Shown here one piece after another: positions 1 to 3,317 of a DNA stretch of 6,743 nt (the first letter of the stretch is position 1; each line of letters opens with the position of its first letter). The translations under genes were made by a program, and so were the position numbers. Below the pieces are notes generated by a model that was not told the DNA's origin, did not search any database, and saw only the letters and a program-made list of their open reading frames with translations. This stretch comes from JAGLHV01 sp023132075 [NCBI: bacterium] (lineage in GTDB: Bacteria; CBDUZB01; JAGLHV01). The DNA is taken from positions 1 to 6,743 of the forward strand of contig JAGLYT010000088.1 of assembly GCA_023132075.1 (NCBI GenBank), given 5' to 3'.

Positions 1-485
1 CCGCAATTACGGCATTTCCATTTAACTACGGTATCTCTTTTAAATACCTTGTCTTCTTTTATATTTTTAATTAATCTTCGGTAGCGTTTTTCATGCTCTT
101 CTTCTACTTCGGCTATTTCTTTAAATAAATCAGCTATTTCTTCAAATCCTTCCTCTCGGGCAGTTTCTTCCGCTTCTTTATAAAGTTTGGTCCATTCCAT
201 ATTTTCCCCTGCTTCGGCAGATTCCAGATTAGCTAGTGTATCATTAATAACTCCGGCAGGATAGCTTGCTACAATTTTTATTTCTCCGCCTTCCAGAAAT
301 TTAAAAAATCTTTTAGCATGTTCTTTTTCAGTGTCTGCGGTTTCTAAAAATATCGCTGCTATTTGTTCATATCCTGCTTTTTTGGCTACGGAAGAAAAAT
401 AAGTATACCTGTTTCTTGCTTGTGACTCTCCGGCAAAAGATGCCAGGAGATTTTTTTCTGTTTTTGTTCCTTTTACTTTTCCCAT
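1..485 (-). CDS. rbr: Rubrerythrin, classical architecture (3' end cut by window edge)
   Basis: Cytoplasmic non-haem di-iron peroxidase that reduces H2O2 to water with electrons delivered through a rubredoxin centre. I translated this gene directly from the minus strand: ATG at 485-483 and 161 complete codons to the window edge. The N-terminal ferritin-like four-helix domain (about residues 8-140) keeps the di-iron ligands in the family spacing: E20 in FAGESQARNRY, E53 and H56 in ETADTEKEH, E94 and E97 in EAGENMEW, and E128 and H131 in EVEEEH. The C-terminal rubredoxin domain begins at W156 and shows its first cysteine pair, C158 and C161; the second pair lies outside the window. AAGGAGG at 494-500 sits 8-9 bases upstream of the start. 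It is the last visible gene of the Rrf2-led oxidative-defence operon, 53 bp after its neighbour, the widest gap in the operon; I see no terminator or clear promoter in that gap. Identification is secure. Confidence 0.95.
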   Translation of the reverse strand, partial: MGKVKGTKTEKNLLASFAGESQARNRYTYFSSVAKKAGYEQIAAIFLETADTEKEHAKRFFKFLEGGEIKIVASYPAGVINDTLANLESAEAGENMEWTKLYKEAEETAREEGFEEIADLFKEIAEVEEEHEKRYRRLIKNIKEDKVFKRDTVVKWKCRNC

Positions 486-538: not shown

Positions 539-838
539 CTATTTTATCCCATAATCACCTTTATTCCGGTCCTTTAATTCCCCGTGTTTACTCTTGTTCC
601 AATTTTCAATACGTGAAAAATAACCTACCACCCGGGAAACATGATGAACTTTTTTTCCCTGGGTTATCTGATTTTCCAAAATCGGCCATTCATTTTGTTG
701 GATAGCTTCAACAAGGAAATGAGCAACAGTGTTTAGTTCTTTACTCCCGACAAAATAACCGTCTTTACCTTCATGTTCTCCCTGATACCAGTGATAACCA
801 TTTTCAACACAAGCATTGATAAATCCTTCTACTTTCAT
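539..838 (-). CDS. Small protein with a stand-alone NrdD-like C-terminal glycyl-radical domain
   Basis: A 99-residue protein in two parts. Residues 1-65 match nothing I recognise and are rich in aromatic and acidic residues. Residues 68-98 look strongly like the extreme C-terminus of class III anaerobic ribonucleoside-triphosphate reductase (NrdD): SRVVGYF (68-74) followed by WNKSKHGELKDR (80-91), the order and spacing of the NrdD motif RVxGY...WNxxKxxExKDR. G72 lies where NrdD carries its glycyl radical. The rest of NrdD is absent, including the catalytic barrel and the cysteine pairs of the zinc site that precedes the radical loop; the only cysteine is C10. The start is ATG with a GAGGGGG ribosome site (847-854) that nearly touches the desulfoferrodoxin stop, 17 bp upstream, so co-translation is likely. 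Lying among superoxide and peroxide detoxification genes, it may be a repair or spare domain for oxygen-damaged NrdD. It could instead be a structural homologue with no radical. The motif is seen; the function is inferred. Confidence 0.75.
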   Translation of the reverse strand: MKVEGFINACVENGYHWYQGEHEGKDGYFVGSKELNTVAHFLVEAIQQNEWPILENQITQGKKVHHVSRVVGYFSRIENWNKSKHGELKDRNKGDYGIK

Positions 839-855
839 TTTTCTATCCCCCTCTT

Positions 856-1236
856 TTATTTATTTTTCCATAGACCATGTATTGTACAAAATTCCCGTAC
901 TTCTAATATATCCATTTTTGACACCCAAGATTGAACCTCGGGATTTTGTCCGGGTTTTAATTCTACCCTCAAAACTTTATCCTTGGTCAGGACTTCAATA
1001 AATTTAATATAGTGTTTTTCTTCCATAGGATGGGCAATACTTCCTACTTTTATGGTAGTTCCCCCATCGATTTCTTCTATTACCGGAACATGTTTTTCGC
1101 TTCCGGTATCCTCTGTCTTGGCTTCTAATTTTATCATGGGCTGATTACAACACACCAGTGCCGGTGCTCCTTCATGGATTATTTCCACAACATTTCCACA
1201 AATATCACAACGGTAAAGCTCTCTTAATTTAGTCAT
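856..1236 (-). CDS. dfx: Desulfoferrodoxin, 2Fe superoxide reductase
   Basis: Reduces superoxide to H2O2 without releasing O2, the usual superoxide defence of anaerobes; cytoplasmic. The 126-residue length is typical of the two-iron class. The N-terminal desulforedoxin domain has all four centre I ligands: C10 and C13 (CDIC) and adjacent C29 and C30. The catalytic domain has the five centre II ligands H49, H69, H75, C117 and H120, plus the conserved E47-K48 (EKH) that guides superoxide to the iron and helps product release. HPMEEKHYI (69-77) and the CTIHGLW end (117-123) are family signatures. AAGGAGGA at 1244-1251 supports the ATG start. It follows reverse rubrerythrin by 26 bp and is followed by the NrdD-like gene after 17 bp, so its H2O2 product is removed by co-expressed rubrerythrins. 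No key residue is missing. Confidence 0.97.
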   Translation of the reverse strand: MTKLRELYRCDICGNVVEIIHEGAPALVCCNQPMIKLEAKTEDTGSEKHVPVIEEIDGGTTIKVGSIAHPMEEKHYIKFIEVLTKDKVLRVELKPGQNPEVQSWVSKMDILEVREFCTIHGLWKNK

Positions 1237-1262: not shown

Positions 1263-1772
1263 TTAGTCGGTCAAAACTATGTGGTCTGATTCTATCTGCA
1301 TTAATGCTTTAAAGAACTCTTTAATGCCGTCTTCCGGTGCCTGATTAATTGCTTCCCCATAAAATTTAACCGCACTTCTTTCCCTTCGATTAGCTTCCTC
1401 AATATTTGCCCGGTCAGAATCAACAGCCTTATCCGCCCCTGCACTCAATTCCGGTTTGGCTATTCTAAGATGTTTACATATAGTTGAGGCATGCTCCCTT
1501 TCCACTTTGGATAGGCCTTTAAACATACTGGAAAAATGCAAATCTTTACTTTTTTCCGAAGCGGCCTTGTAAAAATTAGTGTTGTTTATCTCTAAATCTA
1601 ATGCCTTCTTTAAATTTTCTTTAGTTATATCAGACAAGGTTTCACTATGTATCAGTTTCCATTCTTTAGCTAAGACAAAATACTCTTCATGAGCACCGCA
1701 AAAAGGACAACTCGTTGGTTTTTCCTCTCCGACATACACTTCTCCGCATACACGACAACGATATACTTTCAT
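1263..1772 (-). CDS. Reverse rubrerythrin (N-terminal rubredoxin, C-terminal di-iron domain)
   Basis: Di-iron peroxidase of the reverse type, in which the rubredoxin domain precedes the ferritin-like domain; in clostridia such proteins act as NADH-dependent H2O2 and O2 reductases with a partner flavoenzyme. Residues 1-37 form a minimal rubredoxin with C6 and C9 (CRVC) and C22 and C25 (CPFC). Residues 45-168 form the four-helix domain, with probable ligands E61 (LEINNTNFY), E91 and H94 (EREH), E126 or E131 (EEANRRE) and E161 and H164 (ESDH). At 169 residues it is close to the size of the family. A purine-rich AAGGGAG site at 1779-1785 supports the ATG. It lies 26 bp after the lactate dehydrogenase gene and 26 bp before desulfoferrodoxin. 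No NADH:rubredoxin oxidoreductase gene is visible here, so its electron donor must be encoded elsewhere. Confidence 0.93.
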   Translation of the reverse strand: MKVYRCRVCGEVYVGEEKPTSCPFCGAHEEYFVLAKEWKLIHSETLSDITKENLKKALDLEINNTNFYKAASEKSKDLHFSSMFKGLSKVEREHASTICKHLRIAKPELSAGADKAVDSDRANIEEANRRERSAVKFYGEAINQAPEDGIKEFFKALMQIESDHIVLTD

Positions 1773-1798: not shown

Positions 1799-2848
1799 TT
1801 AACTAAAACAACGTTTTTTTTCTTTTTTTATACAGGTTTCTCCGCAATGATAACAAATCTCATTTTTTAAATATCCACCGTTAAAAAATTCAATAATATT
1901 ATCCAAGGTTGTCCGGGCAATGTTAGTCAGCGCTTCTTTGGTAAAAAAACCCTGGTGGGAAGTAATAAGCACATTGGGAAAAGTCAGGAGTCGTGCTAAT
2001 ATATCATCATCAATCATCGAAGACGAAAAATCCTCAAAGAAATAATTACTTTCTTCCTCATATACATCAAGTCCTGCCCCTCCGATTTTCCTGCTTTTAA
2101 GTCCTTCTATCAATGCCTGTGTCTTAATTAATTTCCCCCTGCCCGTATTAATAATCATTACCCCGTCTTTCATGCTGGAAATACTCTCTTCGTTAATCAT
2201 ATATTGGGTTTGAGGCGTTAAAGGACAATGCAGGGAAATAATATCTGCTTTTTTATAAAGCTGAGCAAGAGAAACATAAGTAACCCCTGCACTTTTTGCA
2301 TATGATTTATCAGGATAAAGATCAAAACAAATGATATTCATCCCAAATCCTTTAAGAATAGAAATTAAACATTTTCCTATTTTACCGGTTCCGATAATAC
2401 CTGCTGTTTTACCGTGCATATCAAAACCGAGTAATCCATTTATACTAAAATTATTATCCCGGGTACGATAATAAGCCCGGTAGATTTTCCTGTTTAATCC
2501 AAGCATTAAAGCAACCGCATGTTCACTAACGGCATAAGGAGAATATTCCGGTACACGCATAATATGAATATTTTTAAATGCCGCTCTTAAATCAACATTG
2601 TTATATCCGGCACAACGCAAGGCAATTAACTCTATTCCATTTTGTTTTACTATACTTATAACCTCCTTGTTAACACTATCGTTAACAAATGCACATACTA
2701 CATTAAATCCCTGCACCATTTCAACAGTATCTTTGTTTAAATGATTTTTTAAATATTTTATATCAAAATTATATTGACTGTTTGCCTGCTCAAAAAATTC
2801 CCGGTCATAAGGTTTAGTATCGAAAAATGCTATCCTGACTTTATTCAT
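1799..2848 (-). CDS. ldhA: D-lactate dehydrogenase (LdhA-type D-2-hydroxyacid dehydrogenase) with cysteine-rich tail
   Basis: NAD-dependent reduction of pyruvate to D-lactate, the fermentative step that recycles NADH; cytoplasmic. The sequence follows E. coli LdhA closely along its length: FDTKPYD (9-15), the substrate-loop RCAGYNNVD (78-86), YSPYAVSEH (102-110), Rossmann GTGKIG (153-158) ending in D176, the acidic residue that favours NAD over NADP, then HCPLTP (207-212), active-site R237 in NTGRG, E264 in DVYEEE, and H298 in TSHQGF. It then runs about 18 residues past the usual NE end, with C332, C335, C339 and C347 in a C-x2-C-x3-C-x7-C pattern that could bind metal. AAGAGGA at 2854-2860 supports the ATG. 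It sits 26 bp after the Rrf2 gene and so is the first structural gene of the operon. A related 2-hydroxyacid substrate cannot be excluded. Confidence 0.9.
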   Translation of the reverse strand: MNKVRIAFFDTKPYDREFFEQANSQYNFDIKYLKNHLNKDTVEMVQGFNVVCAFVNDSVNKEVISIVKQNGIELIALRCAGYNNVDLRAAFKNIHIMRVPEYSPYAVSEHAVALMLGLNRKIYRAYYRTRDNNFSINGLLGFDMHGKTAGIIGTGKIGKCLISILKGFGMNIICFDLYPDKSYAKSAGVTYVSLAQLYKKADIISLHCPLTPQTQYMINEESISSMKDGVMIINTGRGKLIKTQALIEGLKSRKIGGAGLDVYEEESNYFFEDFSSSMIDDDILARLLTFPNVLITSHQGFFTKEALTNIARTTLDNIIEFFNGGYLKNEICYHCGETCIKKEKKRCFS

Positions 2849-2874: not shown

Positions 2875-3270
2875 TTATAATAAATGTGCTAAGGTAATGC
2901 CTTTCAATTCGGAAATAACATATTTTTCTATTTTATCAATTTTCTTTTTAAGTTTACATGTTTTAATATTCGGACAAACTTGTTTTTTAAAAACACATTC
3001 ATTTAGTTTTAACGGCCCTTGAAAAATTTTCATCAAATCGGTTAGAAGTATTTTATCATGCGACTTAACTAAAGCAAAACCACCACCCTGTCCTTTATAT
3101 GACTTGAGTAGTTTTTTCTTGTTTAAAATTTGAAGAATCTTTCTTAAAAAAGGTCTGGGAATTTTTAAGACCCCCACCAGTTCACCAACCGATACCCTGT
3201 TTTTTTTGCTCCCGGAAATAAAACAAAGTGCCCTGACTGCATAGTCCGTATCCCTGGTAATCAACTTCAT
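2875..3270 (-). CDS. Rrf2-family transcriptional regulator with putative Fe-S cluster cysteines
   Basis: DNA-binding repressor or activator of the IscR/NsrR (Rrf2) family, 131 residues. The family opening is intact: TRDTDYAVRAL (5-15), then a winged helix-turn-helix with recognition segment IPRPFLRKILQIL (37-49) and the wing GQGGGFAL (60-67). C92, C99 and C105 match almost exactly the three cysteines that hold the cluster in IscR and NsrR, so redox, oxygen or NO sensing through an Fe-S cluster is likely. The IscR residue H107 is L107 here, so the fourth ligand is unknown. GGAGA at 3276-3280 places the ATG start. The gene heads the operon containing ldhA, two rubrerythrins and superoxide reductase, and a 23-bp inverted repeat overlaps its own promoter, so it probably autoregulates all six genes. 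Family assignment is secure; the signal sensed is inferred. Confidence 0.92.
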   Translation of the reverse strand: MKLITRDTDYAVRALCFISGSKKNRVSVGELVGVLKIPRPFLRKILQILNKKKLLKSYKGQGGGFALVKSHDKILLTDLMKIFQGPLKLNECVFKKQVCPNIKTCKLKKKIDKIEKYVISELKGITLAHLL

Positions 3271-3288
3271 GTTTATCTCCTTTATGTC

Positions 3289-3311
3289 AATGATACTAAA
3301 TTTATATCATT
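3289..3311. promoter_or_regulatory. Putative Rrf2 operator, 23-bp inverted repeat
   Basis: Perfect 7-bp arms AATGATA (3289-3295) and TATCATT (3305-3311) are separated by 9 bp. Read as an 11-1-11 dyad, 9 of 11 positions match. It covers the promoter spacer and the -10 box, so a bound protein would block RNA polymerase. The 23-bp size and single central base resemble the layout of NsrR-type sites, although the bases differ. Binding by the adjacent Rrf2 protein is inferred from position. Confidence 0.7.
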
Positions 3312-3317
3312 TGTCAA
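3290..3317 (-). promoter_or_regulatory. Sigma-70-type promoter of the Rrf2/oxidative-defence operon
   Basis: On the minus strand a consensus -35 box TTGACA (3317-3312) is followed after 16 bp by TATCAT (3295-3290), which differs from TATAAT at one position. The transcript would begin near 3283, leaving a very short leader of about 13 bases that just holds the ribosome site before the ATG at 3270. A second TTGACA at 3290-3285 has no matching -10 and is probably coincidental. Confidence 0.75.

Follow-up and report, generated by a model that had tools for sequence, protein, structure and literature searches.

A stand-alone NrdD-type glycyl radical domain in an oxidative-defence gene run, and its candidate role as a trans-acting subunit of class III ribonucleotide reductase

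Why should a run of oxidative-defence genes encode the radical-bearing end of NrdD, the class III ribonucleotide reductase (RNR), and none of the rest of the enzyme? The question is raised by the window analysed here, that is, the whole stretch of 6,743 nucleotides from JAGLHV01 sp023132075 (assembly GCA_023132075.1, contig JAGLYT010000088.1). A first reading of the letters alone (the sequence-only reading) had placed a 99-residue protein at 539-838, in one operon with superoxide reductase and two rubrerythrins, and had proposed that it is a spare part for class III RNR. The coordinates and the 99-aa ORF held, with the strand to be given as minus (the plus strand read from 539 contains three stops), and the neighbours were confirmed by matches to dfx_rbo (166.5 bits), to PF21349 and PF02915, and to a rubrerythrin of the sister species. 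The features are as follows.

1..485, minus strand: second rubrerythrin, downstream, truncated at the contig end (match: 191-aa rubrerythrin, sister species)
539..838, minus strand: stand-alone NrdD glycyl-radical-domain protein, 99 aa plus stop (ORF, PF13597, TIGR02487, homologues)
542..655, minus strand: NrdD-type glycyl radical domain (GRD), residues 62-99 (PF13597 positions 531-560; family profile against 8p23)
623..625, minus strand: codon of G72, the proposed radical glycine (aligns with the G of R-I-T-G-Y in 8p23; G in 45/45 loci)
656..838, minus strand: N-domain, residues 1-61, proposed docking domain (AlphaFold2; predicted helix, three strands, two helices)
856..1236, minus strand: desulfoferrodoxin / superoxide reductase, dfx (dfx_rbo, 166.5 bits, cut-off 146.9)
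1263..1772, minus strand: rubredoxin-rubrerythrin protein (PF21349, PF02915)
1799..2848, minus strand: D-2-hydroxyacid dehydrogenase family protein (PF02826/PF00389)
2875..3270, minus strand: Rrf2-family regulator, first gene of the run (PF02082, E 6e-26)
3285..3317, minus strand: candidate promoter TTGACA-16-TATCAT over an imperfect palindrome, ATGATA-N9-TATCAT, a candidate Rrf2 operator

All genes of this run share the minus strand and are spaced 17-53 nt apart. The site at 3285-3317, 5' of the Rrf2 gene, matches the promoter consensus at 11 of 12 positions, in a scan that found 13 promoter-like sites versus 11.8 expected by chance, and the region recurs in the sister species with three mismatches; the palindrome was spotted by eye and was absent from the output of the repeat search at the settings used. 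The sister species (G002) has the gene run of the window minus the first rubrerythrin, and in G001, a third species of the genus, NrdD, the stand-alone protein and dfx are all absent, so that G001 is uninformative.

We found that the window protein, which carries RVVGYF and WNKSKHGELKDR, is homologous to the extreme C-terminus of NrdD. Specifically, its residues 62-92 correspond to positions 531-560 of the 562 of PF13597 (E 4.9e-6, a significant match, at 25.9 bits just below the Pfam cut-off of 26.2 bits), it matches positions 548-580 of the 581 of TIGR02487 (E 2.1e-6, far below that model's whole-protein cut-off), and four of five homologues scanned exceed the PF13597 cut-off. The sequence-only reading had described an NrdD C-terminal signature with G72 at the radical position and neither catalytic barrel nor zinc cysteines, and all of this was borne out: only PF13597 positions 531-560 are matched, leaving no ten-stranded barrel with its finger-loop cysteine, and there is a single cysteine, C10, so that the four-cysteine zinc site is absent. 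When solved sequences were searched with the family profile, one protein was matched at E 0.1 or better, the NrdD of Prevotella copri (8p23 and six more entries), over the radical loop. As described in the structural passages of PMC11226230, the C-terminal domain of that enzyme consists of a structural zinc site, then a buried loop with Gly711, then a tail. The glycine aligned to G72 is residue 715 of the 743-residue 8p23 chain, and we take it to be Gly711 because the numbering given in PMC11226230 stops at 739. Known spare parts serve pyruvate formate-lyase (PFL), as passages of PMC8683613 relate, and the window protein might likewise serve a glycyl radical enzyme other than NrdD; this is very improbable, however, as Pfam matches the NrdD model only, in the window protein and in five homologues (a scan of the window protein to E 1 gave NRDD alone and no other glycyl-radical model), and the GRD loss observed in carrier genomes, described below, is in NrdD.

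The sequence-only reading had regarded residues 1-65 as a docking segment. AlphaFold2 predicts a folded domain over residues 1-60 (helix, three strands and two helices; mean pLDDT 86-91 per block of ten), so this part would not be a bare segment, and in the distant homologue of G144 the predicted elements of the N-domain come in the same order. The GRD alone is poorly determined in the model of the window protein, with pLDDT under 50 at residues 66-83. No relation of the N-domain to NrdD cores was detected by hhalign (probability 0.2%), and Foldseek against the PDB gave no match at E 0.001 or better. The top VIA-align results (Z 5.7; Holliday junction resolvase, HicA, cyanophycin synthetase) fall in the range of common arrangements, and no functional link was drawn from them.

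The window protein is 92%, 59% and 62% identical to three homologues, the first being that of the sister species. Between these two species the stand-alone gene has a dN of 0.036 and a dS of 0.21 (dN/dS about 0.17), like dfx (dN 0.036, dS 0.215), and the gene is under purifying selection. A non-functional duplicate fragment of the 3' end of nrdD, for which the closeness of the GRD to the same genome's NrdD in several cases might speak, is hardly credible given this dN/dS, the invariant glycine, the predicted N-domain fold conserved across distant members and the nearly identical gene run in the sister species. The stand-alone GRD is closest to its own genome's NrdD GRD in only eight of 14 cases, with ties counted as first; this matching was set aside as evidence, as shared descent explains it equally despite a permutation result of 0/100,000.

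To describe the family, a four-row alignment was searched against 386 genomes, and the form with N-domain plus GRD was found in 13 of them (split over two contig ends in G208). Three weaker hits were left uncounted, that in G081 because it is the tail of a full-length NrdD interrupted by the edge of a contig, those in G305 and G019 because their GRDs come without the N-domain. In a named collection, 516 stretches matched the pattern, 346 were confirmed and 80 of these were kept, among which we counted 45 stand-alones; L143, a contig-cut NrdD end, was set aside. The records carrying stand-alones are titled Elusimicrobia, Auribacterota, Omnitrophota, Planctomycetota, Brocadiaceae, Eisenbacteria, Clostridia, Nitrospirota, Thermoplasmata, Nanohaloarchaea and others, and judged by their titles all 45 come from metagenomes or uncultured organisms. 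Conservation of G72 among homologues was complete, with glycine at the radical position in 45/45 loci (41 GY and four GF), and nine residues were invariant in an alignment of 50 rows (R69, G72, W80, N81, K82, K84, E87, L88 and R91), all of them in the GRD. The family may accordingly be described as a predicted folded N-domain joined to an NrdD GRD, present in several phyla and in archaea. An apparent in-frame TGA inside the copy of G446 (Saganbacteria) proved to be the normal stop ending a 97-aa ORF. Two stand-alone copies or matches each were seen in G399 (L103 and L113), G393 (L097 and L105) and G397 (L101 and a second match), whose records are titled Thermoplasmata, Thermoplasmatota and Thermoplasmatales. 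A single-protein scan of viral contigs matched five stretches, none of which was confirmed as a relative of the window protein, and the window protein had no match in PHROGs.

Genomes with the stand-alone protein also encode NrdD. In the 386-genome sample this holds for 13/13 carriers versus 148 of the 386 genomes overall (hypergeometric p 2.8e-6, kinship uncorrected), and among named carrier genomes an NrdD core was found in 35 of 37, the two without it being G396 and G404. We read the NrdD C-terminus in each carrier. Of the 12 readable in the sample, which leaves out the cut NrdD of the window genome (G000), six have an intact GRD (G002, G069, G071, G208, G240 and G368) and six have none (G144, G212, G268, G281, G341 and G357). 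In the named set, where five NrdDs are cut by contig ends (G393, G400, G405, G409 and G410), eight are intact and 22 lost or decayed, and G446 has two intact NrdDs. Altogether 15 of the 43 readable carriers, G446 included, retain the GRD, while in 28 it is lost or decayed. The expected co-occurrence with NrdD is there, but a full-length NrdD accompanies the stand-alone protein in only 15 of the 43 readable cases, and loss in the other 28 makes a stronger case for use in trans than full-length NrdD would.

The manner of loss varies. Fifteen of the 28 GRD-less NrdDs end at most 16 residues past the last zinc cysteine, near the start of the radical loop (counted by eye); the decayed GRDs of G411 and G416 have serine in place of the glycine, that of G415 retains the glycine, and the remnant in G357 is without it. 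In G413 (L205) a GRD remnant lies in frame behind the TAG of nrdD, the fossil of a recent loss. At E 0.001 the family profile matched 29 sequences in the 28 GRD-less genomes, each of them a stand-alone (two in G399), and revealed no further GRD; PF13597 is less sensitive to short domains and missed the stand-alones of G388, G389, G391 and G398. NrdG2-type activases scored above the cut-off in 35/35 genomes searched, including three without an NrdD core (G001, G396 and G404), and since the activase is present also where no NrdD core is visible, this co-occurrence supports our reading weakly.

These counts bear on a decoy or regulator that would bind NrdG or NrdD and halt radical formation, or on a sacrificial radical sink or oxygen sensor, in either case without catalysis. 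Such a competitor would suit the stress-operon setting and the presence of an intact GRD in the same genome. In 28 genomes, however, the family profile turns up no GRD other than the stand-alone protein. If the NrdDs of these genomes are working enzymes, which their conserved cysteines suggest, the stand-alones should therefore be supporting catalysis in them; we consider the decoy quite unlikely.

As a comparison, we examined non-carriers whose NrdD falls in the score class of the carriers (PF13597 E between 1e-153 and 1e-117). Among the matches listed, 26 of 26 non-carriers in this class end at profile positions 559-562, i.e. with the GRD, and after omission of the partial matches of G080 and G323 the GRD was missing in 6/12 carriers versus 0/24 non-carriers (p 4.7e-4, likewise among the matches listed). 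Two non-carriers with weaker matches, G100 (L241) and G238 (L242), encode NrdD-like proteins in which GRD, zinc site and CCR finger-loop motif are all missing, possibly inactive, altered or repurposed NrdD paralogues; if both are counted as losses, the p of 4.7e-4 weakens to about 0.007, and once every NrdD-like protein is included, loss of the GRD is seen outside the carriers too. What is informative is that, in genomes without a stand-alone, loss of the GRD accompanies loss of the catalytic-loop motif, whereas with a stand-alone the motif is kept. The non-carriers G012 and G160 have frames of 526-536 residues with the CCR motif and no GRD, which belong to another NrdD type. The family profile was also run on 31 more genomes, chosen through an intact GRD and so uninformative on loss; they comprised one known carrier (G390), one new carrier (G446), one with a 38-residue fragment (G447) and 28 in which only NrdD matched.

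The GRD-less NrdDs are otherwise well preserved. All 26 of the GRD-less cores examined (the partial cores of G281 and G389 being omitted) retain both the CCRL motif of the finger loop and the four cysteines of the zinc site, and 115 of the 151 columns that do not vary among 12 intact cores are invariant in these 26 as well. Finger loops with a double cysteine have been described as a motif of class III enzymes (PMC9669993). Judged by these residues, the GRD-less NrdDs look alive. In a tree of 72 NrdD cores, from which the zinc and radical parts had been removed, parsimony required a minimum of 10 switches between the intact and the lost state for the full 72 rows, and of eight when carriers alone were counted; a mixture-model tree gave the same counts, both trees being quick ones. 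The tree omits G281 and G389 (partial cores) and G446. In it G409 is labelled lost, but the contig of G409 stops short of the GRD; the sisters of G409 are decayed, and the change count is unaffected. G071, with an intact NrdD, nests among GRD-less relatives, two of them from its own family. The changes are probably mostly independent losses, because loss is easier than regain.

Gene context differs between the two groups of carriers. Using the same 15 query proteins for both, within four genes (some loci show fewer than four genes per side), we found stress genes (Rrf2, Fur, dfx, rubrerythrin, rubredoxin, Hcp or FprA-like) near the stand-alone in 9/14 carriers with intact NrdD versus 2/28 GRD-less carriers (p 1.8e-4), and nrdD itself in 0/14 versus 10/28 (p 0.017); G446 was omitted from this count, its Hcp being one of the queries. 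Pfam confirmed the Rrf2, Fur, dfx and rubrerythrin assignments where checked. After correction for kinship the link keeps its direction and is not significant: the tree offers six independent pairs, none of which opposes expectation, with median p of 0.125 and 0.25. Broadly, the stand-alone gene tends to have stress genes for neighbours in carriers with intact NrdD, and in the GRD-less ones it is often found next to nrdD. No stress neighbour was recognised in five of the 15 carriers with intact NrdD, two of which have no upstream gene in view. Further cases were noted: in G446 the start of the stand-alone gene (L232:1501-1794) overlaps the stop of an hcp (prismane, hybrid cluster protein) gene; in G404, which has no visible NrdD, the stand-alone lies beside a Fur-family gene, a rubredoxin gene and an FprA-like gene; and in the archaeal G399 one copy adjoins a GRD-less nrdD and an nrdG-like gene, while the second lies near dfx. 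In G144 the GRD-less NrdD, its NrdG and the stand-alone are encoded together in one gene run. A DUF1858 protein precedes the stand-alone in the Eisenbacteria-like L048, L050, L120 and L124 (by Pfam in L120, by eye in the rest), and a DUF6485 protein follows it in L107.

In the window organism, too, the protein might be the standing radical subunit of a two-part NrdD, handy under stress and not a repair part. The lost or decayed GRD in 28/43 carriers would agree with this, as would the fact that the C-terminus of the window genome's own NrdD is not in its assembly (87% complete, 389 contigs): the contig breaks off within nrdD ahead of the GRD, and the missing tail was not found elsewhere among the 389 contigs. 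Since the window nrdD is cut, the case for an intact NrdD, and hence for a spare, in this lineage rests on the sister species, where the stand-alone protein is 92% identical, the GRD of NrdD is intact and the gene run is almost the same. This counts against a standing subunit in the window organism, as does the setting of the GRD-less carriers, in which the stand-alone lies near nrdD in 10/28 and near a stress gene in 2/28, and we regard such a role as unlikely there.

We consider it likely that the stand-alone protein supplies NrdD with its glycyl radical in trans, as a spare subunit in the lineage of the window and as a standing one in many others. The spare-part idea of the sequence-only reading is supported in its core, by the profile match, the glycine and the co-occurrence with NrdD, but it does not cover the many lineages in which the protein looks like an obligate subunit (28/43 NrdDs GRD-less or decayed). 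The predicted folded N-domain would be the anchor that seats the protein next to the zinc site of NrdD. G72 would receive its radical from NrdG, and the loop that carries it would take the place of NrdD's own C-terminus in the barrel. Oxygen cuts class III reductases at the glycyl radical, as stated in passages of PMC3019208. In the lineage of the window, the oxidative-defence operon would make the stand-alone protein, and NrdD cut by oxygen at its glycine would be returned to work, a repair role that the stress operon fits; in other lineages NrdD would have lost its GRD and the stand-alone would have become the standing radical subunit. Oxygen-cut NrdD would resemble the natural GRD-less NrdDs, and a part serving the latter should serve the former. 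It also seems somewhat likely that many uncultured bacteria and archaea have a two-polypeptide class III RNR with the radical glycine on an exchangeable 11-kDa subunit, which would have begun as an oxidative-stress spare and repeatedly become the sole radical domain, so that the oxygen-cut state of NrdD would now be its normal one, with damage mended by a swap of the small subunit.

GrcA/YfiD and Y06I, the latter a phage T4 protein, resemble the window family in being short stand-alones with a C-terminal copy of an enzyme's radical domain and an extra N-terminal half, and in supplying the radical glycine in trans, as the window family would do. Kammel and Sawers (2022) reportedly found that GrcA restores inactive full-length PFL. 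The window family differs from GrcA/YfiD in that its radical domain is of the NrdD type and not of the PFL type (PF01228), in that Rrf2, dfx or Fur genes are often its neighbours in genomes with an intact NrdD, and in that its partner enzyme has lost its own radical domain in many lineages. In addition, passages of PMC8683613 describe the N-terminal half of YfiD as disordered and as important for binding and activation, whereas the N-domain of the window family is predicted to be folded. The window protein would work like GrcA but does not belong to the GrcA family, given its NrdD-type radical domain and predicted folded N-domain. With NrdD itself (PF13597, TIGR02487; P. copri 8p23) it shares the C-terminal R-x-x-G-Y ... 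W-N-x-x-K-x-x-E-L-x-x-R, but it is without the barrel, ATP-cone, finger-loop cysteines and zinc site. According to Andorfer et al. 2021 (PMC8683613), YfiD and Y06I, both serving PFL, were the only spare parts validated by then, and counterparts for other glycyl radical enzymes are possible. The sequence-only reading had pointed to no described equivalent for NrdD, and in agreement with it we found neither an NrdD spare part nor an NrdD radical domain on a separate chain in the open-licence literature searched. The family is a concrete and widespread spare-part candidate for NrdD, the maker of DNA precursors without oxygen; the repeated GRD loss in carriers amounts to a natural complementation experiment, and GRD-less NrdDs with their stand-alones are partner pairs open to direct expression and assay. 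If our reading is true, the stand-alone offers anaerobes a way to sustain DNA synthesis after oxygen exposure.

A second kind of split NrdD was also seen, in which a truncated nrdD is followed by a short GRD ORF without the N-domain, in L017 (G058), L018 (G023) and L059/L061 (G305); the GRD of G305 carries, judged by eye, a fused glutaredoxin-like domain. Short 'NrdD' proteins of this kind are common in public annotation. Like the window family, it has the NrdD radical domain on a separate polypeptide, but it differs in having no N-domain, in that the GRD ORF adjoins the truncated nrdD, and in belonging to another PF13597 score class. Among the PF13597 matches listed, 37 with E below 1e-158 end at profile positions 525-539, and at least two PF13597 matches are present in 35/37 genomes of this set (again among the matches listed); a reading of the second match as a GRD is confined to G058, G023 and G305. 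Finally, a Mu-like prophage (by eye) in G019 contains a 61-aa ORF for an NrdD radical domain (L014:1471-1656), which three phage records match over about half its length and which is possibly a phage-borne spare part.
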